64,000 bases of DNA, taken from positions 1 through 64,000 of the forward strand of contig JAJUGR010000004.1 of NCBI GenBank assembly GCA_029265905.1, written 5' to 3'. The translations under genes were made by a program, and so were the position numbers. The stretch is from Sporomusaceae bacterium (GTDB lineage: Bacteria > Bacillota > Negativicutes > Acidaminococcales > JAJUGR01). The notes under the pieces were generated by a model. It saw only the letters and a list, made by a program, of their open reading frames with translations, was not told where the DNA came from and made no database searches. Shown here piece by piece: positions 26,750-55,993 of this stretch (positions are counted from its first letter, which is position 1; the number at the start of each line of letters is the position of its first letter).

Positions 26750-27489
26750 CGGTTGGTCTCCCCTTTCTTTTTGAACAATCGATTAACCCGCTCTAAATCT
26801 TCCGGCGTGTCAACGCCGATGCTGACAAAATCCGTGTTCAACACCTTGATCCGGTAGCCGTGCTCTAAGGCGCGCAGCTGCTCAAGGCTCTCCACTTTTT
26901 CCAGCGGCGTCGGCGCCAATTCGGCAAAGGCCAGCAAAAAGTCCCGCCGGTAGGCGTAAATGCCGATATGCTGCCAAACCGGAACGTCCGGGTCCGCCTG
27001 CCGGGGATATGGGATCCGCGAGCGGGAAAAATACAGCGCAAAGCCGGACAGGTCCGTTACCACCTTGACCGCGCTGGGTTTGTCGTAATCTTCGCTGTGC
27101 ATGGGCGTCGCCAACGTTGCCATGGCAACGGACGGGTCGTCCAAAAGCGCTTGGGCCAGCCGGTCAATGACCGACGGCTCGATCAAGGGCTCATCCCCCT
27201 GTACGTTGACGATGATCTCGGCCTCCGGGTGACGCTTGGCCACTTCCGCCAGGCGATCCGTACCGCTGGGATGGTCGGCGGCGGTCATGACGGCTTCGCC
27301 GCCAAACGCCGCGACGGCGTCGCGGACAAGCTCATGGTCAGTTGCAATCAGCACTTTTTCGGGCAGGGCTGCTTGGCAGGCGCGTTCGTAAACGCGCTGG
27401 ATCATCGGCTTGCCGGCGATGTCGGCCAGCGGCTTGCCGGGCAGACGCGTAGAAGAGTAACGGGCTGGAATGACGCATAAGACCCTCAT
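26746..27489 (-). CDS. kdsB: CMP-Kdo synthetase
   Basis: This 247-residue cytidylyltransferase has [20 protein letters not shown] at the start (nucleotide-binding), [12 protein letters not shown] and [11 protein letters not shown]-like [10 protein letters not shown]. It activates Kdo as CMP-Kdo, the donor for WaaA. The gene overlaps the WaaA-LpxK fusion gene by ATGA at its 5' end and kdsA at its 3' end. Confidence 0.96.
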
Positions 27490-29960
27490 TTTCGTTCTCC
27501 TTTTTCAATCGCCTCAAGGATTCGTTGGCGCAAGGCCTCCGCACCGTTGGTGATTTTTATTTCCATGCCGAGCACGTACAGCGGCTTATCACGGTCGGAA
27601 TAAATAAATTCAGACGGGATTTTGACGGCGTCCTTCTCCGTCGTCACCAGCGCGTGGGCGTTCTTGGCAACCGCCCGCTCAGTCACGGACTGCATCTCCA
27701 AGACGCCGTAATCATGGTGGTCCGGGTAGCGAACGGAATCGACAATACGCAGGCCTTTATCGGACAACGTCTGTTCGAAAGAGGAAGGATTGCCGATCGC
27801 CGAAAAGGCAACTACGTCCCGCCCCTGCAATTCCGTCAGCGGCAGGTTCTTTTCCTTAAGACCCTTGTACCAGTCGGCGATTTCGACAAAGTAGCAGGGG
27901 TTATGGATGCTCTCGGCCACGAGCGCGGTCGGATTGTGCTGTTTAAGAACGTTCTCCAGGTGTTCGCGCGCCGCTTCCGAAGCCTGGTCGGTCTTGGTCA
28001 ACAAGAAGACGTCAGCCCGGTCTAGGTGCTCTAGCGGTTCCCGCAACGTGCCGCGCGGCAGCAGGTGGTTGTTGCCGAAAACATTCAGGCTGTCGATCAA
28101 AACAATATCCAGATCGCGGGCCAGTTGCCAATGCTGATAGCCGTCATCCAAAACGATGACTTCCGCGCCTAAATTTTCTACGGCATAGCGTCCGCTGATC
28201 GAGCGGTCCTTGCCAATCACAACCGGGATGCCTGGGAGCGTCTTGGCCATCAAATACGCCTCGTCACCCGCCTCGTAGGCCGTCATATAAATCTTGCGGC
28301 CGTCGGAAACCAGCCCCACGGCTTTTTTCCAATGGGCGCGGTAGCCGCGGTTCAAGATGACCACCTTGTAGCCCATTTCGCGGATCATCGGCGCCATCAT
28401 TTGCGCCGTCGGGGTTTTGCCGGTGCCGCCGACCGTTATGTTGCCCAAGCTAATTACCGTCGCCGGCAGGCGGTGCTGCGTCAACAGACCCCGGCGGTAA
28501 AGCGCCAGTTTGACGCGGACGCCCCAGCCGTATAAGACCGAACTGGCCCTGAGCAGGCCCAGCACCAAAACATCAAAAGGCCCGCCTGTTTCGTCATGGA
28601 TCAGGCGGAATAAGTATTGCCGCACCGCTTCATTGCGGGCGCAAGGATTATCCGGTATAAGGCCGGCATCCGCCTCAAGCACCTCGCGCAAATGCACAAT
28701 GCTGCGCTCAGCGGCGCCGCGGTTGTCTAAAATGACCTGAAGGGCGGCCTGTCCCATCTTCAGGCGCAAGTCTTTATCCTGCAGCACCCTGTCCATCGCT
28801 GACTGGATTTCCGCCTCATTTTGCACCGTCAGGCAGGCACCGCAGTTCGTCAGCAATTGGTACGAGTCCTTGAAATTGAACATATGCGGTCCGACTAAAA
28901 TCGGCTTGCCGTGCGCCGCCGGTTCAAGGACGTTATGCCCGCCATGCGCGATCAGGCTGCCGCCAATGAAAACGAGATCGCCCAACGCATAGACGCGCCC
29001 CAGTTCGCCGATTGTGTCCAGCAACATGACTGGCGCATTAGACGACGCGTCCGTTTCCTTTATCTGAGAACGGCGGGCCGTTTCAAAGCCATATTTTTTT
29101 GCCAAAGCAGCCAATTCATCAGCCCGCTGCACCTTGCGCGGCGCCAAGATGAGGCGCGCGCCTGGATAGCGTTCACGCAAGCCGGCAAAGGCGGTTAACA
29201 GCGGTTCCTCCTCGCCCGGATGCGTGCTGCCGGCCACAATGACCGGCCAGTCGCCGCCCAAGCCCATCTCCTGGCGGTAGCGCGCCTTGTCTGCCTCTGT
29301 CACCTCAGCATAAGTCTGATCGAATTTCGTATTGCCAGTCACCACGACCAGCTTGGGGTCGGCGCCCAAACGAATGATGTATTCCGCATCAAGGGCGGAC
29401 TGCATGCAAAAGCGCCGAACGCTGCGCAGCATATCGTGCAGGATCGTAAACAGATACCGGTAGCGCTTTACGCTTTTGTCGCTGATGCGTCCGTTCACCA
29501 TCATGACCGGGATGCCGGCCTTGGCCACAGCTTGCAAAAAATTAGGCCATAATTCTGTTTCAACCGGCAAAAACGCGCGCGGTTGGATGCGCGCCAGCAC
29601 TTTGGCCACGACCCAGGGCAAATCTAGGGGGAAATAAATAATCGCGTCGGCTTCCGGCATCACGCGCTTGGCCATTTCGTAGCCGGCGGTCGTGACGGCC
29701 GACACCAAGATCGGGCGCTCCGGCCACTCGGCTCGCATCTCTTTGACGATCGGGCTGGCGGCCACGATTTCGCCCACCGAAGCGCCGTGTATCCAGATGC
29801 AGCCCGTGCCGGCCACTTTTTTAATATCTTCCGCTGACAAATTGCCGAAGCTTTCACGCAGACGGCGGTCAAACCCCGGCACAGTCGCCATACGGTATAG
29901 AAAGACTGGCAGCATGCCAAGTACGGCAAGCACAGCCAACAAGTTATAGAGTACGTACAT
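27486..29960 (-). CDS. Fused Kdo transferase (WaaA) and lipid A 4'-kinase (LpxK)
   Basis: This is one 824-residue open frame with two complete enzyme domains. Residues 1 to about 430 are a WaaA-type GT30: a membrane anchor, IHGASVGEI with the catalytic-type Glu64, VETELWPNFL, FIGGSLIAHGGHNVLEP and GPHMFNF. From about residue 445 to the end is LpxK: an N-terminal hydrophobic helix (PFDVLVLGLLRASSVLYGWG), the Walker A GNITVGGTGKT (506-516), NRGYRAHWKK, DEAYLMAK and VLDDGYQHW. The order LpxK then WaaA of the E. coli pathway is reversed in the chain. I see no frameshift or stop at the junction, so the fusion is real in this sequence. It lies between msbA and kdsB. Confidence 0.95.
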   Translation of the reverse strand: MYVLYNLLAVLAVLGMLPVFLYRMATVPGFDRRLRESFGNLSAEDIKKVAGTGCIWIHGASVGEIVAASPIVKEMRAEWPERPILVSAVTTAGYEMAKRVMPEADAIIYFPLDLPWVVAKVLARIQPRAFLPVETELWPNFLQAVAKAGIPVMMVNGRISDKSVKRYRYLFTILHDMLRSVRRFCMQSALDAEYIIRLGADPKLVVVTGNTKFDQTYAEVTEADKARYRQEMGLGGDWPVIVAGSTHPGEEEPLLTAFAGLRERYPGARLILAPRKVQRADELAALAKKYGFETARRSQIKETDASSNAPVMLLDTIGELGRVYALGDLVFIGGSLIAHGGHNVLEPAAHGKPILVGPHMFNFKDSYQLLTNCGACLTVQNEAEIQSAMDRVLQDKDLRLKMGQAALQVILDNRGAAERSIVHLREVLEADAGLIPDNPCARNEAVRQYLFRLIHDETGGPFDVLVLGLLRASSVLYGWGVRVKLALYRRGLLTQHRLPATVISLGNITVGGTGKTPTAQMMAPMIREMGYKVVILNRGYRAHWKKAVGLVSDGRKIYMTAYEAGDEAYLMAKTLPGIPVVIGKDRSISGRYAVENLGAEVIVLDDGYQHWQLARDLDIVLIDSLNVFGNNHLLPRGTLREPLEHLDRADVFLLTKTDQASEAAREHLENVLKQHNPTALVAESIHNPCYFVEIADWYKGLKEKNLPLTELQGRDVVAFSAIGNPSSFEQTLSDKGLRIVDSVRYPDHHDYGVLEMQSVTERAVAKNAHALVTTEKDAVKIPSEFIYSDRDKPLYVLGMEIKITNGAEALRQRILEAIEKGERK

Positions 29961-29969
29961 GCCTCATCC

Positions 29970-41071: not shown

Positions 41072-42346
41072 TTACAAATTGCCGACCACCCGCAGGAACT
41101 GCTCGTGCCGCCCTGCCACATACTCCACGCTCAAAAACTCGTGCAGTCTGTAGCGCAGAGTGATATCACGGTCGTTATCATGCGGATGAACTTGCGCGCG
41201 GACCCTCCAGGTATTAGCAAAACTACGCTCTACCCACCAGTACGTCTCCTGATCGCCCAATTCAACTTGCGCGCCAAACAGCCAGGGACCATTATGCCAG
41301 GCATAGCCGGGCTCCACGGTCCAGTCCATCTCTGTCGGCCGCAATGTTATTTCCACAAATGCCTCATTCTGGGGGCTGAAGAATTTTCCGGCATGCAGGC
41401 GACCAGAAATATTGTCATCCTTCCGGTCCACATCCACATACCCTTCCGCCCAAAAGCGGTAACGATCTGACTCCAAGCGAATTTGCACCTGTGTGTCTGC
41501 ATCCGCCTTGACAGACACGTCCGGCGTCAGTCGATAACGCTTCGCCACGGAAGTATCTGCGGTTTTCGTCGCCAGCCACTGCGTCAATTCCGGCGCATGC
41601 CGCGCGGCGTATTGTACCGGCAATCCGCGGATCGACTGGGCCAAACGACCGATTTGCTCTTTTTCTTCCAACATCAATACATTGGGGATCGAGAGAGAAA
41701 ACAGCTGGTACTGCACGCGCTGCACCGTCTGACCGATCGGCAACAGCACGATATTCACCTTCGGCACGGACTCGGCGCTGATGTCGACCGTCGTTTGAAA
41801 CTCCGGCACACGCGTTTCCACGCGCCGCCGGATTTCCGCCTTGACCGCCCCGCTGCTCCAATCGATTGCATCCCGGGACAAGCCCAAAAACAGGGCTTGC
41901 ACTTCTGCTTCAAGCGGTCCTAAATCAGCCCGCAACAGTGGCAGCATGTCGGTTGATACCCCTGACAATGTCAGCCGCACATCCGCGCGTTCCACAACCG
42001 GCCCCCATGGGCGCACCGTAAGCTTAACCAGCGTTTCCGGCCCCACCACCAGCGCCACTTGTTCAACGCTGTAGCCGGTCAGCACCCGCTCCGCTACTTC
42101 ACCAATGAGGCGTCGATAATCGGCTTGCCGATCGGCAACCAACTCGCTCGGCCGTTCCTTGAGCAAATGCTCGCTGATGACCGATAGGCTGGCGTTCATG
42201 CGCTCCATCAGCACTGGCGATGGACGTCCTTGAGGAAAATCAAGTTCGACCCGCACTTTTTCCACCAGCGGCGCTGCTTGAGCAACCAAGGGCAGGAGCC
42301 AGATCGCCAACACCAACAGACACCAAGATACGAACCGCTTGTTCAT
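41072..42346 (-). CDS. Outer-membrane protein of unknown family next to bamA
   Basis: I do not recognise the family. The protein is about 424 residues with a signal peptide (SWCLLVLAIWLLPLVAQA). The N-terminal part (25-260) has mixed alpha/beta segments, some reminiscent of POTRA-like repeats (VEKVRVELDFPQGRPSP...; LVKLTVRPWGPVVERADV). The C-terminal 150 residues alternate aromatic and polar residues in strands (YRFWAEGYVDVDRKDD; EAFVEITLRPTEMDW; WLFGAQVELGDQETYWW) and look like a barrel. Its position directly after bamA suggests a BamA partner or substrate. Either of two adjacent ATGs after AGGGGGG is possible. Confidence 0.65.
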   Translation of the reverse strand: MNKRFVSWCLLVLAIWLLPLVAQAAPLVEKVRVELDFPQGRPSPVLMERMNASLSVISEHLLKERPSELVADRQADYRRLIGEVAERVLTGYSVEQVALVVGPETLVKLTVRPWGPVVERADVRLTLSGVSTDMLPLLRADLGPLEAEVQALFLGLSRDAIDWSSGAVKAEIRRRVETRVPEFQTTVDISAESVPKVNIVLLPIGQTVQRVQYQLFSLSIPNVLMLEEKEQIGRLAQSIRGLPVQYAARHAPELTQWLATKTADTSVAKRYRLTPDVSVKADADTQVQIRLESDRYRFWAEGYVDVDRKDDNISGRLHAGKFFSPQNEAFVEITLRPTEMDWTVEPGYAWHNGPWLFGAQVELGDQETYWWVERSFANTWRVRAQVHPHDNDRDITLRYRLHEFLSVEYVAGRHEQFLRVVGNL

Positions 42347-42367
42347 CATTTCCCCCCTGGCAAGCAA

Positions 42368-42413: not shown

Positions 42414-44153
42414 TTAGAATTGACCGCCAAAGCTGAAATGGAAGCGGCTTTCTTGCTCGCCCATAGCATAATCCAACCGCACAGCACCAAGCGGCGTGCC
42501 GACACGCACACCCACACCTACGCTCGTTTTGAAGTCAGCAAGATCAAAAGGCTCGCCCTTGTCCCAAGCATAACCGGTGTCAGAGAAAACAACGCCGTCA
42601 AACTTCTTCGCCAGCGGGAAGCGATATTCCGCAGTGGCGCACAGCATTTTATAGCCTCTAAATTGATCGTCCTTATAACCGCGCAGGTTGTCGCTGCCGC
42701 CTAAGGAAAAACGCTGGCTGAGCGGCATCGTACCGTTAGCATAGCCGCCGTTCAGTCGTACGGCGATTGTCTGCGCATGGCCAACTTTGAAGTATTGCCG
42801 CGCTTCCGCGTTATACTTGTTGAAGCTAAAATCGCCGCCCAAGCCATGACCGGCGAACTCCGACGACAGCAGGTAACGTTTCCCCGCTGTCGGGTTGTGC
42901 ACGCTATCGCGCGTATCGATGACCCGCTGCAAGAGAACGCTTCTGGTCAAACCAAAATTTTTGCTTTTTTCATCCGGGTTGTTGTCGTAAAAATTCGTCG
43001 TTTCATCCTCAACGCCTGCTACATACGTATCTTCCCGGTTCTTGAGCGTAATCGAATTCGTGATATATTCGCCCTGCGCGCGTCCGAGCGTCAAATCCCA
43101 GCCTTCCCGGCGCTTGTCGTACACGTCTTTTACTGAGGTGTCGTCATTGTACTCGGTGTACTCGTTTGTCATGCGGTAAACATTCAGCCCCAGGTAGGTT
43201 TCCTTGCTGTCAAGCCAAGGGTGTACGTAACCGAACTCATAGTTTCTAGCATCGGCGCCGCCAAACTCCCAACGGACGTTCACCTTGTCACCTGTCCCGC
43301 GAAAATTTTTGTCGCCGAGCGACAAAATGCCGACCATACCGTCATCTTTGCTGTAGCCAGCACCAATGCCGAAGGTACCGGTTTTTTGCTCGACAACGGT
43401 GATTTCCACTTCCACGCCGTTGGGCGCTTTTCCCGGGTTCAGTTTGACATTGACGTCTTCAAAATAACCCAGGTTGTAAAGCCGCTGCAAACTGCGGCGG
43501 GCATCCTTGACATTAAATGGCTCGCCTTTTTTGAGACGCATTTCCCGCAAAATGACGTAATCCTTTGTCTTTTCGTTGCCTTTTACAGAAAAGCCTTCGA
43601 CAATGCCTTCGTTGATCACTAGGTTGAGGGTGCCATCCGGACGCAAATTAATGTCGCTTACCCGCGCCAGTATGTACCCATCCTTATGATAGCGCTCTTC
43701 AAGCTTGCGCACCCGCTCACTGAGCGTCTTGCCGTTGATCATCGCCTCTTTTTTCAACTCCAGCAACGCCAGAATGTCCGCTGTGGAAACCTTAGTGTTG
43801 CCCTGAACTTCAAGTTTTTTGAACACGGGGTTTTCCCGTACGCGGTACATGACCTGCACGCCCTCCGGCACTTCGGCAAAATCCGTGCCGACGTCATAAA
43901 ACCAGCCGAGTTCGTAAATCCCCTGTAAGTCGGCCCGAATTGCCTCCGCAGTTAGCGATTGCCCCGCTTTCAATTTTACAACGGCCATGATTTCCGGATC
44001 AGTGATGAGGCGGTTGCCGGTCACAGTCACTTTTGTCACTGTCCTGCCAATAAAGCTGTTCTCCTCCGCCAGCGCCGTGCCCTGGCCTACGAGCAGAAAC
44101 AACGTCATCAGGCAACTCACCAGCACACTCATCAGTTTCGTTCGTTTCTTCAT
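42414..44153 (-). CDS. bamA: Outer-membrane protein assembly factor BamA, three POTRA domains
   Basis: This is a 579-residue Omp85 protein. After the signal peptide, three POTRA domains can be counted: from about residue 35 (VTKVTVTGNRLITDPEI), about 110 (FKKLEVQGNTKVSTADI) and about 190 (VEGFSVKGNEKTKDYVIL). The C-terminal barrel contains GGSDNLRGYKDDQFRGYKM, the conserved RGY/F motif of loop L6, and ends in FHFSFGGQF with an aromatic C-terminus. It inserts barrel proteins into the outer membrane. E. coli BamA has five POTRAs (810 residues). No bamB-E genes are seen nearby. Confidence 0.93.
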   Translation of the reverse strand: MKKRTKLMSVLVSCLMTLFLLVGQGTALAEENSFIGRTVTKVTVTGNRLITDPEIMAVVKLKAGQSLTAEAIRADLQGIYELGWFYDVGTDFAEVPEGVQVMYRVRENPVFKKLEVQGNTKVSTADILALLELKKEAMINGKTLSERVRKLEERYHKDGYILARVSDINLRPDGTLNLVINEGIVEGFSVKGNEKTKDYVILREMRLKKGEPFNVKDARRSLQRLYNLGYFEDVNVKLNPGKAPNGVEVEITVVEQKTGTFGIGAGYSKDDGMVGILSLGDKNFRGTGDKVNVRWEFGGADARNYEFGYVHPWLDSKETYLGLNVYRMTNEYTEYNDDTSVKDVYDKRREGWDLTLGRAQGEYITNSITLKNREDTYVAGVEDETTNFYDNNPDEKSKNFGLTRSVLLQRVIDTRDSVHNPTAGKRYLLSSEFAGHGLGGDFSFNKYNAEARQYFKVGHAQTIAVRLNGGYANGTMPLSQRFSLGGSDNLRGYKDDQFRGYKMLCATAEYRFPLAKKFDGVVFSDTGYAWDKGEPFDLADFKTSVGVGVRVGTPLGAVRLDYAMGEQESRFHFSFGGQF

Positions 44154-44165
44154 TCACAACCCCCT

Positions 44166-44702
44166 CTATTGCTGTCCGCGCAATGTCTGTCCGGCTTTGC
44201 GCACGAGTTGCCGCACCTCATCGTCGGATATACCCACCCCAGCGGGTTTACTCGACGGCACGACTGCTTGCTGCTTGTCGGCCGGATTTTCAGTCTTTTC
44301 CAAGCGTGCAGATGGCGCCACCCGCGCCTCCGGTATCGGAACCTGTTGCAAAGGATGTGCCACTGTTTGCACAAGCGGCCGTTCAGACGGAAATTCTGGC
44401 TTCAATGCCACGCGCGGCTGTGCCACGGTCAGCACCGGCTCAACGGGTGCACGCAATGACCACCAGATGCCAGCGCCAGCGCCGGCGATCACCAGCGCAG
44501 CTAGCACGGCTGCGCCATGGCGCAGCCAACGGCGCGACGCTGACGGTTCGCTTTCTTTCAAGCGTTTCAATTCCGCTTCGGCCAGCAACAAGTTCAACTC
44601 CCCGCGCACTGGCCGCTCGCGGCTGAACTCTTCCTCCGCCTTCGCCAGCCAGCGTTTTGCGGCGCCAACCCGTTGTCCTGCCAATTTCCATTTGCTTTGC
44701 AT
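44166..44702 (-). CDS. Single-span membrane protein of unknown function
   Basis: This is a protein of about 178 residues. The first 65 residues are helical and charged (VGAAKRWLAKAEEEFSRERP, LNLLLAEAELKRLKE) and should be cytoplasmic. One span follows (HGAAVLAALVIAGAGAGIWW). The periplasmic part is about 100 residues, rich in proline, and ends GISDDEVRQLVRKAGQTLRG. I do not recognise the family. The topology (cytoplasmic helices, one span, periplasmic tail) next to a sigma-factor gene would suit a membrane anti-sigma factor, and the proline-rich tail would also suit a TonB-like or Bam-associated protein. The start at 44702 (ATG after GAGG) is preferred over a GTG 18 bases upstream. It is 12 bases before bamA. 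Confidence 0.6.
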   Translation of the reverse strand: MQSKWKLAGQRVGAAKRWLAKAEEEFSRERPVRGELNLLLAEAELKRLKESEPSASRRWLRHGAAVLAALVIAGAGAGIWWSLRAPVEPVLTVAQPRVALKPEFPSERPLVQTVAHPLQQVPIPEARVAPSARLEKTENPADKQQAVVPSSKPAGVGISDDEVRQLVRKAGQTLRGQQ

Positions 44703-44739
44703 ATTCCTCACCTCGGCCACGTACCTATATAGTCATCTC

Positions 44740-44778
44740 TGAATTAGCTTTTTTCACAGAGCAAAAAAAGCTAATTCA
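44740..44778. repeat. Perfect 15-base inverted repeat between the sigma factor and the membrane protein
   Basis: TGAATTAGCTTTTTT (44740-44754) and its exact complement (44764-44778) flank a 9-base spacer. As RNA it would form a 15-pair, A/U-rich hairpin. No U tract follows the stem in the direction of transcription, which is unlike the clear terminators elsewhere in the window. It may be a weak terminator, an mRNA processing site or a protein-binding site. The remaining gap (44703-44844, 142 bases) has a TATATAG at about 44725-44731 that could be a -10, without a matching -35. Confidence 0.6.
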
Positions 44779-44844
44779 GGCGGCTTGGTGTGTTTATTGG
44801 CAATTTATAAGGAAATAGACCATTAAATCGCCGATTTTCTCCGG

Positions 44845-45492
44845 TTACCATTCTTTCATCTCATGTATCAGGCGGGACAGCATCCCTCTGACACGCCGGA
44901 CGCCCTGTTTTTGCAGTCGGTAAATGTGCGTCAGGCTCACATCGATCATCCGCGCCAATTCGGCAGGTTGGGCATCGTCAACATACAGGCCGCACAACAC
45001 TTGCTGCTCCTTGGCCGGCAGCCGCTCAAGCGCTTTTTTCACCTCAGCATGCAGGAACCGCTCCTCCGCTACCAAATCCGGCGGCAACCCTTCATCCACC
45101 AGAAAATCCACCCAGGCCGCCTCTTCCCGCCAGGCCGGCGCGTCGAGCAGCAATTGCCCAGCTCCAGATTCGCGCTTCAAATAATCCATCATGCGCCCGC
45201 GAATCCGATGCAGGGCAAACAGGCTGAAGGCAACGCCGCGCTGCGGCTCATACCGCTCGAGCGCCTCGATCAGCCCCACCGTGCCTTCTTGAATCAGGTC
45301 AAGCGCCAGCGCTTCCTGCAGCCCGAAGGACAAAGCCGTCTTGAACACGAGCGGCTGGTAGCTGGTAATCAGTTGGTCGCGGCTCTCACTACTGCCAGCC
45401 TTGCACGCCTGCCAGAGCGCCGCCTCTTCGGTGCGCTCCAATAACGGCCGCTTCTTCAATTCACTAATTAAGGCCTGCAGTTGCGATTGCAT
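44845..45492 (-). CDS. RNA polymerase sigma factor, sigma-70 family
   Basis: This 215-residue sigma factor has region 2 in LVFKTALSFGLQEALALDLI with QEGTVGLIEALERYEPQRGV and FALHRIRGRMMDYLKRE, and region 4 in ALERLPAKEQQVLCGLY followed by the helix-turn-helix PAELARMIDVSLTHIYRLQK. The region between is short and acidic. It is related to the FliA/sporulation-type group more than to the primary sigma factor. It lies 18 bases downstream of tamB and upstream of a membrane protein and bamA. This suggests control of envelope genes, but no target promoter can be proven here. The Shine-Dalgarno is weak (GGCCGG), so translation may be coupled to tamB. Confidence 0.9.
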   Translation of the reverse strand: MQSQLQALISELKKRPLLERTEEAALWQACKAGSSESRDQLITSYQPLVFKTALSFGLQEALALDLIQEGTVGLIEALERYEPQRGVAFSLFALHRIRGRMMDYLKRESGAGQLLLDAPAWREEAAWVDFLVDEGLPPDLVAEERFLHAEVKKALERLPAKEQQVLCGLYVDDAQPAELARMIDVSLTHIYRLQKQGVRRVRGMLSRLIHEMKEW

Positions 45493-45510: not shown

Positions 45511-48500
45511 TTAAAATGAAAACCGCATTTCCACACCATACCAGCGGTCATTGTCTTTGTCGACCGTGGCAGCAAAGTTGATCCGATGCGAAAAATCGTA
45601 TTGCAGTTTGTAGTGGTAATACTCACGGTTCGTCGTCGTCGTATAACCGATTTTAATGCGATCGGTCACATACTTGCCGACTTCCAGGTTGTAAATCTGT
45701 TCATTATCAGACCGCTGCAATTTTTGCGTCTTCCCAGAGGCATCAGTCGGCGGACCGCTAAAGAGCCGGAATTCATCGAGGCCCAGCGCTGTGCGGATCG
45801 TGTATTCCAGTTCGCTCAAAAACCGCGCCTGCAAGCCAACCTCCAGCAGCCCCATTGCCTCTGTCCGGCCAAATTCCGGCGCACCGCCGCCTTTGTCGCG
45901 CGCGTCCTGGTAGCGCTGCCGCATGGTCAAGAGATAAATGATTTCCTGCTGGCTCATCGGCGGGTCGGCGGACAGTTTCAAGTCGAGTTCATCGATCGTA
46001 CCGTTCACGCCTAAGTTAATCATTGTTTCACTCAGGCGTGCCTCGCCTTCCAGGTTGATCATCGGTAAAAAGCTGCCCGGCTTTGGCCAGGTGGCCAGCG
46101 CTTTATGGATTTTAAACGGCGTCCGCAGGTACGTGACCGTGCCCTTGGTCGCCTCAACCCGCCCGCCGATCCGAGGGAAGCGGGTGCTGCCCTTGACGTC
46201 GATCTGACCGACAATCGGCAGATCATACAAATACGGGTTGTACAACCGCGTCTTCGGGCCGATCTTCACGAGGGCGTCCAGGTAGGCAAACGGCAGCGCC
46301 GTTTCCCCCTGCGCCACGAGCGGGATGTTGATCGTCGCGTTGTCAACCAAAACTTCGCCTTGCAGAGCGGGATTGCCGTTGCGCTGGTAGAGGCGCAACG
46401 AACCGTCAAGCATGCCCTTAAACAAACTGCTGTCAAGCATCGCCTTGTTCAAAGCCAGCTTCACATCATAGTTCGCCAGTTCCAGTCCGGCAATCACGGC
46501 CTCGCCGCCCAAGCGCCAGCTGCCGGTTCCCATATTGCCCGAAAAGTCCCGTATCACTATTCTATCATCTTGCAGAGTTATGGCAATATTTACTTTTTCA
46601 ATCGGCTGCCTGAGCTTGGCGAGGCGAATCACGCCGTCTTGCACCTGAAACTCCCCATAGGCCTTCAGGTCACCTAACGTGCCTCGAAGCGCGACTTCGC
46701 CCGTCGTCTTGCCCGTACCCCATTCGATCTCGCGCGAAAACAGGGGCAAAATGGAGAGGTCGGCGCGGTCAAGCTTGAAGCGCAAATCAATCGGATTATC
46801 TCGTGCTTCCTGCGAGCCGGATTTGGCGGTAACGGCCGCCAGCGGCACCGTGCCATAGGCGCTCGCCTGGTATTCGCCCTTGCGGACGAACAGCTGGTTT
46901 ACTTTAAAGATTTTATTTTCCAAGGTGGCCATGGCATACAAGTTGTCGAAAGTCCCCGGCCCCACGCGGCCAGGCGAAATTTCCAGCGACATGGCCATGT
47001 TGGGATTTTGCGTCTTGCCGGACACTTGGACGAACAGGTTCATGTCGCCGCCAAACGGCACCTGCGTCTTGCGCGCCGCCGCCAGGAGCGCAGCGTCGAG
47101 CTTGTTGCCGCCCAGCTCCACATTAATTTCGCCGTCCAGATCGGCCGTTCCGCGCGCCACCAAGAATCCTGCGCCCTGGCGGGCCTCAAACTTGTTGATC
47201 GTCCAGCGGCGATCCTTGAGCGCCACGGCCAACTCGACCTGCTGGATAGGCAGGCCGCGCCAGCTGCCGTCTTTAATATTGCCTTCAATGGACACGCCCA
47301 CGTTTTTCGGCTGGACATCAAACGTGACGTCGCCGTTAAGGGTCCCTTTAACCGCCTGCTCCTGCAGCTTGGCAATCTGGAAAATGGGGGTCAGGTCTCC
47401 GTCCACCGCCGACATGCGTCCCACCAGTTGATCCTCTTTGCTGTAGTAGGTGGCATTGAGCTCGTATTTGCCCCGGCCGATCTGAAAAGCAAAGGAGGGG
47501 ACGTGCGTAATCCCAGCCCGGTGATGGAGTTCGCTGTTAACGTCGTTGATGTCTTGTCCGTTCAAATTGAGTTTGTGCGCGCGCAGGCGTCCGTCAAACA
47601 CCGGCTGCGCCAGGCTTCCCGTCAGCAACCCGTCAAACTGCATGATGCCTGTCAATCCGATCTCGGGCGGCAGCAGCAGCCGGGCAAGATCAATGTCCTG
47701 CGCGCTTAGCTTCAGGTTGCAGGCGCCGGACAGGGCGAGGTCGCCGGCAAAGTCGAGGCGCGTGTCAAGCGAGACAATCTGCCCTTCCGCCAAGCGCAAG
47801 GTGCCGTTTTCATACGTGTAGTCGACCTGCGCCCGGGCGATCAGCTGCTTGTAGGCGCTGCCGTCCGTCAGGCGCAGTTTTCCCGTCGCCGAGGGGTTCG
47901 ACAGCGGACCGGCTATATGCACCGTTTGGCTGAGGTTGCCGGTCAGCGGCGTGCCGGGCGCCAGCAACGCCGCCACCGGCTCAAGGCGCACGCCGGAGCT
48001 GGCAAGCGTCAGGTCCACAACCGGCTCCGCGCCCTGCAGATTGACGCTGCCCTGCAACTGGTGCCCGGATGCAACATCGCCCAGCCAAGCGCGATGAATC
48101 CGAAGCACCCGTTCGTCAAAGGTCAACTCCGCCCGCGCCAAGGTAAAGGGCTGCCCGAGCGCATTGCCGTCCTGCGCCGCCAGTTCAACGGCGGCGCGCG
48201 GCAAAGCCGGCGTGCCGCCCACATCAGCCGTCAGCCGGCCCGTTCCGCCGGCGCGGACGCCAAACGGCGCCGCCAGTTGTTCAATCTGCACGCCGGAGGC
48301 CTCCAGGTGGCCGGCCATCGACGTCGGCGAAGCCTGTCCGCTGGCAAAGAAACTGCCGCCGGCCAAATTGCCGAACGCGGCCCCGGATACGGCCTTGCTC
48401 GGGAGCAGATGAAACTCTGCTGTCAGCGCCGAGGCGGCAACGCCATAGACGTTCGCCTGTCCGGCCGTTACGCTGGCCTGCCCCTGCCAGGTGTTTGTTT

Positions 48501-49761
48501 TGACATTCCCATTCGCCGTCATCCGGCCGCTGGTGGCGCCGGACCAGATCCGCCCGTCCGCGCCACGCCAGAACTGCATCGGATCAAGATTCGACCATTG
48601 GCCGGAGGCCTGCAAACCGCCCTGCTCCCATTGGTAGACGCCGGAAGCCGAAAGGCTGCCGCCGGCCGTCTGCGCTTGCAGAACCGGAACGGTGATCGTA
48701 TCCCCCTGCCAGTCAACGGACACAATCAGTTGGTCGAGCGTCGCCTCCAGCAGCAAGTCGCTTGTAATTGTTTCCGGCAGCCACGGCGCCAGCGCCGCCA
48801 GCGGGAAAGCCTTGCCCGCAACGTCGAGCGCCGCCCCCGCAATCTCGCCCCGCAGCACGCCATTGATGCGTCCCCGCACGTCAAGCGCCTGTGCCATGCC
48901 GGGCTGGCTGACAGCCGCTTGGGTCAGCAGCAGGTCATGTCCTTCCAGGGCGATGCGCCCCTCCGCCATCACCTGATGCCCACCATATTCCGCCTGGAGC
49001 TGTTCCACCAGCGCCTTGCCCCGCCAGTCAACCTGCCCGTCCCGGCGCAGCAGCCTGACCTGGGCGTTGCGCACGCTGCCTTGCGTCAGCTTAAGCGGCA
49101 GCTTGTCCTGCACCAGCTTGATGACCCGCGCAACGTCCAGCCGCTCGGTCTGGGCGCTTAGTTCGCCGCTGCCGGAGCGGTCGATCCGCCCGCTGACAGC
49201 AATCACGTCGCCGTCAATTCCCAGCTTGGCCTCAACGCCGTATTCCGGCCACACGCCGGCATCGATGCTGCCGTCTAAGGTAAAAGCTTGGTCGGCGGTC
49301 TCCGTGACAACCCGCCCCTGCCCGTTATGGACATAAACGCGCCCGTAAAAAACAGGCTCCGCCACTTCCTGCGGCTTGATCAAGCCCTCCGTGTTCCACC
49401 GCCCTGCTTTTTCCACCAGCGAAAAAGCGGGCTGCTCCACATGCACGGCCCGCACGGCGGCCATCGGCTCGTGCCCGACGAGCAAGCGGTAATAGTTCAA
49501 ATCCACCGAGACGTCCGGCGACTCCGCTACCACCCCGCCCTGCTTGTCGAGCAGACGCACCTGCTTGAAATGTATTCCGCTGTGCCAAGTTACATCTATC
49601 CTGTCAATGACGATCTTGCCGTCAATTTTCGCTTCCGCCGCCTGGATAACCGCATTCTTTGCCGTCTCCAGCCAGGCAGGCCCCTTCACGGCAACGACAG
49701 AGGCCAGCAAGAGGGCCAACACAGTCAAGCCGACAACAAGCCGGGCGAATAACTTCCGCAT
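45511..49761 (-). CDS. tamB: TamB-like inter-membrane protein (DUF490)
   Basis: This is a very large protein of about 1416 residues with an N-terminal membrane anchor (LFARLVVGLTVLALLLASVVAV) and otherwise almost entirely repeated beta strands of the AsmA/TamB beta-groove type. The C-terminal DUF490 domain (about the last 350 residues) has LDGSLRLYQRNGNPALQGE, VEATKGTVTYLRTPFKI and the end VDKDNDRWYGVEMRFSF. TamB-family proteins span the periplasm and are implicated in lipid transport to, or protein insertion in, the outer membrane. No TamA is nearby, so BamA may be its partner. The ATG at 49759-49761 follows GAGGAGGGG. It leads the sigma-factor and bamA genes. Confidence 0.9.
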   Translation of the reverse strand: MRKLFARLVVGLTVLALLLASVVAVKGPAWLETAKNAVIQAAEAKIDGKIVIDRIDVTWHSGIHFKQVRLLDKQGGVVAESPDVSVDLNYYRLLVGHEPMAAVRAVHVEQPAFSLVEKAGRWNTEGLIKPQEVAEPVFYGRVYVHNGQGRVVTETADQAFTLDGSIDAGVWPEYGVEAKLGIDGDVIAVSGRIDRSGSGELSAQTERLDVARVIKLVQDKLPLKLTQGSVRNAQVRLLRRDGQVDWRGKALVEQLQAEYGGHQVMAEGRIALEGHDLLLTQAAVSQPGMAQALDVRGRINGVLRGEIAGAALDVAGKAFPLAALAPWLPETITSDLLLEATLDQLIVSVDWQGDTITVPVLQAQTAGGSLSASGVYQWEQGGLQASGQWSNLDPMQFWRGADGRIWSGATSGRMTANGNVKTNTWQGQASVTAGQANVYGVAASALTAEFHLLPSKAVSGAAFGNLAGGSFFASGQASPTSMAGHLEASGVQIEQLAAPFGVRAGGTGRLTADVGGTPALPRAAVELAAQDGNALGQPFTLARAELTFDERVLRIHRAWLGDVASGHQLQGSVNLQGAEPVVDLTLASSGVRLEPVAALLAPGTPLTGNLSQTVHIAGPLSNPSATGKLRLTDGSAYKQLIARAQVDYTYENGTLRLAEGQIVSLDTRLDFAGDLALSGACNLKLSAQDIDLARLLLPPEIGLTGIMQFDGLLTGSLAQPVFDGRLRAHKLNLNGQDINDVNSELHHRAGITHVPSFAFQIGRGKYELNATYYSKEDQLVGRMSAVDGDLTPIFQIAKLQEQAVKGTLNGDVTFDVQPKNVGVSIEGNIKDGSWRGLPIQQVELAVALKDRRWTINKFEARQGAGFLVARGTADLDGEINVELGGNKLDAALLAAARKTQVPFGGDMNLFVQVSGKTQNPNMAMSLEISPGRVGPGTFDNLYAMATLENKIFKVNQLFVRKGEYQASAYGTVPLAAVTAKSGSQEARDNPIDLRFKLDRADLSILPLFSREIEWGTGKTTGEVALRGTLGDLKAYGEFQVQDGVIRLAKLRQPIEKVNIAITLQDDRIVIRDFSGNMGTGSWRLGGEAVIAGLELANYDVKLALNKAMLDSSLFKGMLDGSLRLYQRNGNPALQGEVLVDNATINIPLVAQGETALPFAYLDALVKIGPKTRLYNPYLYDLPIVGQIDVKGSTRFPRIGGRVEATKGTVTYLRTPFKIHKALATWPKPGSFLPMINLEGEARLSETMINLGVNGTIDELDLKLSADPPMSQQEIIYLLTMRQRYQDARDKGGGAPEFGRTEAMGLLEVGLQARFLSELEYTIRTALGLDEFRLFSGPPTDASGKTQKLQRSDNEQIYNLEVGKYVTDRIKIGYTTTTNREYYHYKLQYDFSHRINFAATVDKDNDRWYGVEMRFSF

Positions 49762-49824
49762 AGTACCCCTCCTCAGCATGTCTCTACCTGCAAGTTATTC
49801 GGCAAAAAATGAAAATATCCTTTC

Positions 49825-54250: not shown

Positions 54251-55993
54251 TTACTTTACAACCGTAATATTGGCGTAGGCTTCGCCATCGATGACGTAAT
54301 CAATCGTCGTGGCCTGTTTGTACTTGCTGCCCTTGATTGCGCCCAGCGCGGCCCCTTCCGCCACTTCCTCCTCACCGGCAGGCGCCGCCGATGCGGCCGA
54401 CTGCGCGGCGGTTGCGGCGGCCGGCTGCTTGTCCGCCACGTCAACCAACAAGTCATTGTTACGGTCACGCTTCAGAAAATCGTTCATGATCTCCGCGAAG
54501 GATTTTTCCTTCTTTTTAGCCTTGCGCAACACGTTTTGCTCCTGCTGCTTCATCAACTGCTGGAGCCAGGACGTCCCCGCCCCGCCGCGCACGACCAGGC
54601 GCAGTTCGCCAGGTTCCCGCTCCTTGGGAATCGTAAAGACGGCCTGGCGAGTTTCCTTGCCGCCGCGCCAGGTGTCGAAGGCGACCTCAAGCGTCACGGT
54701 TTCCCCTGGCCGGGCCTGCTTTTCCAGCGCGCGGGCCGAAACAATCGTGCCGGTTTTGCGGGCGCCGCCCACTTCAATTTCGACGCCCACATCCATAATC
54801 GTCACGGGCTGAAAGCGATTGGTCAGCAGCAGGTTGACCGCCTCATTGAGTTCCTCGGTAATCGCACTCGCGATATTGGCCTCGTTGTAGTACATGTTGG
54901 AGCGCTCAATCTGCTTGTCGTCCGGCGTCCCCACGGCTGAAACGTGAAACTTGATGTTTGCCGTACCGGGGCCGACGCGGTCGACTACCCGATCAATCAC
55001 GTTGAACACTGCGGTTTCCGTCAGCATCGCCCCCAGTTGCTGGTCCTGGACAACCTGAATGGCGGCTTCCTGCGCCACGCCGCGGTCAAGGTCCTTGACC
55101 TTCACCAGCATGGGAATAATTTTCGGATAATGCTTCGTCTCGCCGGCCAAGCCCGCCTGCCGGTCATCGGTAATCCGCCCCAGGAGCTCTCCCGGCGCGC
55201 CGACTTTAAACGGACTGGAAATGGACGGAATGGTTGCATAGACCCACGCGTTGCTCAAAAAGTAATCCGACGCGCCCCGCCGCAAAAAAGGATGCCCAAA
55301 CGCCCAGATGCGGTTGCCGTCAACCCACGTGACCGTTCCCAGCGCCCCCAGCGACACATCGCCGCGAATCAATTCCGCGCTCAACGCCGAACCCGGTTCC
55401 AGCTCAGTGCCGGCCAATGCGCCCGGCGCCGCCCCCACCGCCATCGGCTCAAGGCCGTAAGTAGAGAGCGCGCCACGCAGTTTTTCCAGGCCGCGCTCCG
55501 TAAAGCCGGACGCCATCAGCGGCGTTCCTTTGGGCAGCAAGGCCGGCGTTTCGGCCGCCGGCGCAGCGGTTGCGTCACTTGCCGGCGCAGCGCCCAGCTT
55601 CAGCATGCTTTCAATCGGAGTCAGCATGCCCACCCGGCTGTCTGACAGCTTCCAGCCATAGGCGATGGCGCCGACCAAGCGCCCATCGACAAACACCGGA
55701 CTGCCGCTCATGCCCTGGGCGATGCCGCCGCTGCGCTCGATCGCCGCGCCGGAAGTCCTGACCAAAATCAAATCGTTGCCGCCGGGCTGGCGCATGACAT
55801 CGATAATTTCCACATCGAACGGTTCAATGGTTGTTCCTGCTACGACCGTCTTGCCAATGCCTTTCATGCCGGGACGCACTTCGTCAATGCCCATAAAAAG
55901 CGAGGCGGCCTGCGCCACGGAAGCAGCCGAGAGGCTGATCATCACCATGGCCAGGCACAGCCAGCGCCAATATCGCTTATTCGTCAACCGCAC
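54251..55993 (-). CDS. Secreted SpoIVB-type serine peptidase (S55 family)
   Basis: This 580-residue protein has a signal peptide (WLCLAMVMISLSAASVAQA). The mature start, FMGIDEVRPGMKGIGKTVV, and GGIAQGMSGSPVFVDGRLVG with the catalytic-type serine in GMSGSP are characteristic of S55 (SpoIVB) domains. A region rich in alanine and proline joins this to a longer C-terminal part with a WVDGNRIWAFGHPFL histidine motif typical of the family. SpoIVB in Bacillus is a forespore-secreted protease that triggers sigma-K activation. This version lacks a visible PDZ domain at the N-terminus and is longer, so it belongs to the broader S55 group of unknown target. It starts with GTG and ends a three-gene unit. 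Confidence 0.85.
   Translation of the reverse strand: MRLTNKRYWRWLCLAMVMISLSAASVAQAASLFMGIDEVRPGMKGIGKTVVAGTTIEPFDVEIIDVMRQPGGNDLILVRTSGAAIERSGGIAQGMSGSPVFVDGRLVGAIAYGWKLSDSRVGMLTPIESMLKLGAAPASDATAAPAAETPALLPKGTPLMASGFTERGLEKLRGALSTYGLEPMAVGAAPGALAGTELEPGSALSAELIRGDVSLGALGTVTWVDGNRIWAFGHPFLRRGASDYFLSNAWVYATIPSISSPFKVGAPGELLGRITDDRQAGLAGETKHYPKIIPMLVKVKDLDRGVAQEAAIQVVQDQQLGAMLTETAVFNVIDRVVDRVGPGTANIKFHVSAVGTPDDKQIERSNMYYNEANIASAITEELNEAVNLLLTNRFQPVTIMDVGVEIEVGGARKTGTIVSARALEKQARPGETVTLEVAFDTWRGGKETRQAVFTIPKEREPGELRLVVRGGAGTSWLQQLMKQQEQNVLRKAKKKEKSFAEIMNDFLKRDRNNDLLVDVADKQPAAATAAQSAASAAPAGEEEVAEGAALGAIKGSKYKQATTIDYVIDGEAYANITVVK

Follow-up and report, generated by a model that had tools for sequence, protein, structure and literature searches.

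A putative sigma factor and membrane anti-sigma factor pair encoded between tamB and bamA in Negativicutes and other diderm Firmicutes

Results

Between tamB and bamA of the window (the whole 64,000-nucleotide stretch of DNA analyzed here), we found genes for a sigma-70-family factor, here called SIG, and a one-span membrane protein, here called MEM. Comparison of genomes lends good support to the reading that they are a co-inherited sigma factor and membrane partner controlling the MEM-bamA unit. We consider it fairly probable that SIG is a dedicated sigma factor driving MEM-bamA-u431, and that MEM is an anti-sigma factor providing feedback on bamA. The open literature that we searched contained no matching description of the pair.

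Organization of the locus

The genes on the minus strand were arranged in the order mlaE, ABC subunit, mlaD, tolC, tamB, SIG, MEM, bamA, u431, three ompH-like genes, lpxD, and more lipid A genes. The genes around the pair were:

45511-49779, minus strand: tamB, directly upstream of SIG (PF04357, 2e-33)
44845-45492, minus strand: SIG, sigma-70-family factor of 215 aa (Pfam, PDB profile search, fold search, alignment)
44166-44702, minus strand: MEM, one-span membrane protein of 178 aa and probable anti-sigma factor; starts at 44711 and 44720 are alternatives (alignments, start codon and Shine-Dalgarno site)
42414-44153, minus strand: bamA, the gene directly after MEM and the predicted target of the proposed switch (PF01103, 6e-51)
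41072-42367, minus strand: u431, located after bamA in nearly all loci

The spacing was 18 bp between tamB and SIG, 142 bp between SIG and MEM (with the ATG at 44702 as the start), and 12 bp between MEM and bamA. The u431 gene is probably part of one transcription unit with bamA. It matched no Pfam family, yet was present behind bamA almost throughout the class and in most loci from outside it.

Co-inheritance and gene order

Among 60 genomes of the same order, SIG was detected in 43 and MEM in 44, and the two were always paired and adjacent except at contig ends. In the class Negativicutes (381 genomes), 268 genomes possessed both genes, four possessed SIG alone, four possessed MEM alone, and about 105 possessed neither (MEM at E < 1e-4, SIG at E < 1e-40; counts tallied by hand from two tables). 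Three of the SIG-only genomes (G126, G134, and G129) contained a diverged MEM after all. The MEM-only genomes included two with SIG fragments or assembly cuts (G004, where SIG was cut by the contig end, and G086), one with tamB directly before bamA (G284), and one with a fragmented assembly (G178). MEM was thus co-inherited with one sigma factor and encoded next to it, as is expected in general of a membrane anti-sigma system. The earlier note on this DNA, made from the sequence alone, had proposed both the pairing of a sigma factor with a membrane partner and its link to outer-membrane biogenesis, and comparative genomics strongly backed the two proposals; MEM homologues mostly lacking a nearby sigma gene would have spoken against them, and the opposite was observed.

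The order tamB-SIG-MEM-bamA was found in 39 of 40 loci picked from diverse families of Negativicutes and in all 49 named loci, including those of Pelosinus, Succiniclasticum, and Phascolarctobacterium (some of the named loci are from the same species as genomes of the class set, and two or three stop before bamA at a contig end). As this order is common throughout the class and also occurs outside it, the earlier description of the pair as inserted between tamB and bamA was misleading. When the pair was absent, tamB abutted bamA in 10 of the 10 such loci with both genes readable. The genes for TamB and BamA of Veillonella parvula are numbered Vpar_0526 and Vpar_0527 (PMC5491611), and these consecutive numbers fit a pair-less tamB-bamA state in that species.

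In one genus (g100), the pair was split, with tamB-SIG and MEM-bamA located at separate sites. Both halves were retained, as was the promoter-like element before MEM (GATTATATA; see below) though SIG had moved away, which points to action in trans. Two loci of another genus (g62; L190 and L192) had SIG and MEM only 18 nt apart, near gene fusion, and the usual promoter gap was gone. In L302, from a complete genome with an otherwise standard locus, 3.2 kb with other reading frames separated SIG and MEM.

When 399 genomes of the phylum were searched with a class-wide MEM profile, 16 non-class genomes were detected at E < 1e-9. All 16 carried SIG (E 1e-53 to 1e-71), and the order was tamB-SIG-MEM-bamA, one of the 16 having 3.2 kb between SIG and MEM. 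Overall, MEM was present in 28 of the 102 Omp85-positive genomes of the phylum and in none of the 297 others (E < 1e-9). No SIG orthologue was detected in 70 further non-class Omp85-positive genomes, where the best matches (~1e-23) were paralogues. The pair, therefore, tracks the outer membrane, and is not universal in diderm Firmicutes.

Characteristics of SIG

SIG was found to consist of region 1.2, region 2, a linker similar to region 3.2, and region 4, with region 3 absent (Pfam and PDB profile search). The Pfam matches were to Sigma70_r2 (4e-17) and Sigma70_r4 (3e-7), and the scores of 62 bits for PF04542 (cut-off 24) and 30 bits for PF04545 (cut-off 24.1) place the protein in the sigma-70 family. 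Its nearest NCBIfam relatives below the superfamily model were WhiG/FliA, SigB/F/G, and RpoS. Two assignments were not supported. ECF (group 4) factors have regions 2 and 4 without region 1.2, whereas the first 35 residues of SIG could be aligned with region 1.2 of SigA/RpoS. For FliA/WhiG factors, SIG scored 78 bits with TIGR02479, below the curated cut-off of 189.6. SIG also differed from the other four sigma factors that the genome encodes. On a phylogenetic tree, the SIG proteins of the class clustered together (86/89); with paralogues forming long branches and the non-class SIG proteins not placed with confidence, the monophyly of SIG was beyond the reach of this tree. A fold search matched sigma factors only, with poor superposition of the whole chain, and yielded no anti-sigma information.

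Characteristics of MEM

The best start of MEM was the ATG at 44702 (178 aa, ribosome-binding site GAGGTGAGG) rather than the GTG at 44720 implied by the list of open reading frames. In the numbering of the 181-aa version (start at 44711), the positive-inside rule predicted residues 1-62 to be cytoplasmic, residues ~63-84 to span the membrane, and residues 85-181 to be extra-cytoplasmic. The following parts were distinguished:

44553-44675, minus strand: cytoplasmic two-helix hairpin, the most conserved part (...WL..AE..F.....RGEL.L.LA.AE...), helical in both AF2 models
44460-44525, minus strand: transmembrane segment, hydropathy peak at residue 68 in the 181-aa numbering
44169-44231, minus strand: extra-cytoplasmic C-terminal helix (..EVRQLVRKAGQTLRGQQ), conserved across the class

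The mean column identity was 0.62 for the hairpin, 0.45 for the span, 0.18 for the linker rich in Pro, Ala, and Gln, and 0.53 for the C-terminal 21 residues. Non-class MEM proteins had similar amphipathic C-terminal ends (LxxLxxxAxxxL). The concentration of conservation in the cytoplasmic hairpin fits the expectation for a partner-binding domain, and the combination of two conserved ends with a free linker suggests that MEM has a partner on either side of the membrane. SIG would be the natural candidate on the cytoplasmic side; the outer partner may be BamA, TamB, or a different protein of the envelope.

Searches of 29 MEM members in Pfam and 37 in NCBIfam gave no match above cut-off, and comparisons with Pfam, NCBIfam, and PDB sequences produced low-complexity matches only. 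Weak matches to NCBIfam models named 'antisigma' were obtained for two of the 37 members (0.004). No recognizable anti-sigma domain was found in these searches and no HxxxCxxC motif in the alignment, which sets MEM apart from class I (RseA or zinc) anti-sigma factors. The layout of class II (CnrY-like) factors, two cytoplasmic helices before one span, was found both in the alignment and in the two AF2 models. The helices of class II factors clamp regions 2 and 4 of the sigma factor and thereby keep it from binding RNA polymerase. The MEM models were of chains reading through SIG, a linker, and MEM (L156 and L019); their helices were confident (pLDDT 86, pTM 0.61 and 0.60), and they inform on the folds and not on docking. 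Direct coupling analysis of SIG and MEM, of low power at a Neff of 72, gave a top inter-protein score of 6.9 versus 5.4 or less in shuffled pairings, a difference that we do not use as evidence because shuffling also removes phylogeny. The descriptions of both proteins in the earlier note were correct.

A promoter-like element upstream of MEM

Alignment of the gaps between SIG and MEM revealed a conserved GAYTATA word. Across the class, a putative SIG-dependent promoter, consisting of TGNNAAAA, ~14 nt, and GAYTATA, was located in front of MEM. In the window, the sequences concerned were:

44750-44758, minus strand: -35-like block TGTGAAAAA of the putative promoter (two-block EM on 68 distinct regions)
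44726-44734, minus strand: -10-like block GACTATATA of the putative promoter (gap alignment, EM, word count in upstream regions)
44739-44779, no strand assigned: perfect 16-bp inverted repeat, AT-rich, with a 9-nt loop (arms 44739-44754 and 44764-44779), overlapping the -35-like block

No run of T follows the repeat, which may be an operator or a hairpin.

The two-block EM on the 68 distinct regions recovered the blocks TGNNAAAAW and GAYTATAWA, mostly separated by 11-15 nt, at a log-likelihood of 253 compared to 113-124 in five shuffles; the search was seeded with the -10 word for real and shuffled sequences alike. The strict -10 word was present upstream of MEM in 34 of the 68 regions (1.3 expected) and in none of the regions upstream of tolC (19), tamB (31), SIG (75), bamA (63), u431 (49), and ompH (28). 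TATAAT, as in SigA-type boxes, was found upstream of tolC (16 of 19) and ompH (21 of 28). The element was absent from nine of ten tamB-bamA gaps without SIG. It was missing or diverged in a minority of the class, for example in g62, where SIG and MEM nearly touch. Outside the class, some loci possessed a looser GGATATTAT-like word.

We searched for further members of the regulon by pattern. In the genome from which the window originates, the full pattern occurred twice: before MEM, the sole intergenic match, and in the coding region of cheD, where it was rejected as a promoter. In nine genomes, matches to the full pattern were not clearly above the reversed control and are thus uninformative on other targets there. 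We also scored 59 loci, each up to 16 kb long, with a position weight matrix (PWM). The strong matches were located almost exclusively before MEM; since part of these loci had served to train the PWM, only the rarity elsewhere is informative. The restriction of the element to the region before MEM-bamA argues for a narrow target. The broad regulon suggested earlier (skp, lpx, and ompM) lost ground; tolC and ompH carry TATAAT instead. The suggested regulation of barrel assembly gained backing from a sigma-like promoter found only before MEM-bamA.

Discussion

Proposed mechanism and alternatives

Sequence comparison establishes the existence of the pair, where it is located, that it is co-inherited, and that the element is conserved. 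We infer that SIG reads the element and that MEM inhibits SIG, as well as the signal and the mechanism of release. SIG probably drives MEM-bamA, and MEM is probably a membrane anti-sigma factor of SIG. In the proposed mechanism, tolC-tamB-SIG would be made from a housekeeping promoter, and SIG would recognize the promoter directly before MEM, switching on MEM-bamA-u431. The two-helix hairpin of MEM would then keep SIG off RNA polymerase from its position at the membrane, presumably through direct contact between the proteins, while the extra-cytoplasmic tail and C-terminal helix would read the state of outer-membrane assembly. Under envelope stress, a poor state of assembly would lead to inactivation of MEM, perhaps by regulated proteolysis, and the released SIG would allow bamA and fresh MEM to be made, closing a negative feedback loop. 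The genome encodes an RseP-like M50 protease and the locus an S55 peptidase, so regulated proteolysis could serve release. The peptidase gene (54254-55993; SpoIVB-type, PF05580, 3e-14, partial match) lies upstream of mlaE and may encode a signaling protease. A similar protein with a SpoIVB domain, Vpar_0521 (PMC5491611), is encoded in V. parvula, which does not have the pair, and we treat this link as a lead only.

Promoter control of MEM-bamA by SIG could also hold with another role for MEM, which would be an inner-membrane part of BAM/TAM, an assembly partner of that machine, or a positive membrane co-regulator required by SIG, and simply the first target. The position of MEM directly before bamA agrees with such a role, as do its staying with bamA and not with SIG at the break in g100, its confinement to Omp85-positive genomes, and its lack of an anti-sigma family match. 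We nevertheless regard it as unlikely, as MEM is gone whenever SIG is gone though BamA and TamB persist, which need not be the case for a BAM component, and the conservation of MEM is strongest on the cytoplasmic side. It is less credible still, and in our view improbable, that the element is a housekeeping sigma promoter or the site of another regulator and that the pair is an anti-sigma system with targets elsewhere. The element does resemble an AT-rich -10 box, and TATAAT was also present in 20 of the 68 regions upstream of MEM, but neither the GA that invariably precedes YTATA nor the -35-like TGNNAAAA corresponds to TTGACA/TATAAT, the tolC and ompH regions have TATAAT and never the strict GAYTATA, and the element disappears from nearly all tamB-bamA gaps along with SIG. 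Conserved clusters can hold passengers, but that SIG and MEM are unrelated genes of an old cluster, neighbors by chance, is very hard to reconcile with their repeated joint loss while neighboring genes stay and with their joint retention after separation.

Comparison with known systems

The reading of SIG and MEM as a sigma factor and its anti-sigma factor invites comparison with sigma-E/RseA of Escherichia coli, which shares a sigma gene beside a one-span membrane protein, a link to outer-membrane assembly, and feedback on assembly genes. Unlike sigma-E, SIG is not ECF-like and has region 1.2; unlike RseA, MEM has a short two-helix domain without the RseA fold or sequence homology to it. Moreover, no RseB gene adjoins the pair, and the predicted target is one operon. 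SigI/RsgI of Bacillus and Clostridium has the same layout as SIG-MEM, the sigma factor being combined with a one-span protein whose cytoplasmic N-terminus is small and whose outer tail is long, but no RsgI domain was found in MEM (Pfam, NCBIfam) and the gene context differs. With regard to sigma-28 (FliA)/FlgM, FliA/WhiG factors are among the best profile relatives of SIG, and the anti-sigma partners of group 3 sigma factors are small; SIG, however, is without region 3, MEM is membrane-bound, and the genome has its own FliA-like factor in the chemotaxis region (C27). In CnrY of Cupriavidus, the cytoplasmic anti-sigma domain is very small and made up of two helices (PMC4598750, PMC7406223). The CnrH/CnrY system shares with MEM this small domain in a membrane protein (class II anti-sigma) and differs in sensing metal with CnrX; no sequence relation to MEM was found, the likeness being one of layout.

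The control of outer-membrane biogenesis in diderm Firmicutes is an open question, and the ancestral status of their outer membrane is debated. A regulator located between tamB and bamA and common to several diderm classes would be a new character for this debate. It would also suggest, in a form that can be tested, how one Omp85 protein acting in both BAM and TAM can be controlled when RseA is absent, and the reading predicts a sigma factor devoted to one operon and an anti-sigma family that is both new and minimal. More tentatively, and with slightly more doubt than confidence, we propose that the pair is an ancestral dedicated sigma/anti-sigma circuit of diderm Firmicutes that predates the split of several classes, with MEM-bamA as essentially its only target. 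If so, the circuit's having been missed so far would be explained by the loss of both genes from lineages such as Veillonella, which serves as a main genetic model.

Elsewhere in the window, a single reading frame (27489-29963, 825 aa) contained both a Kdo-transferase domain and an LpxK domain, an apparent WaaA-LpxK fusion.
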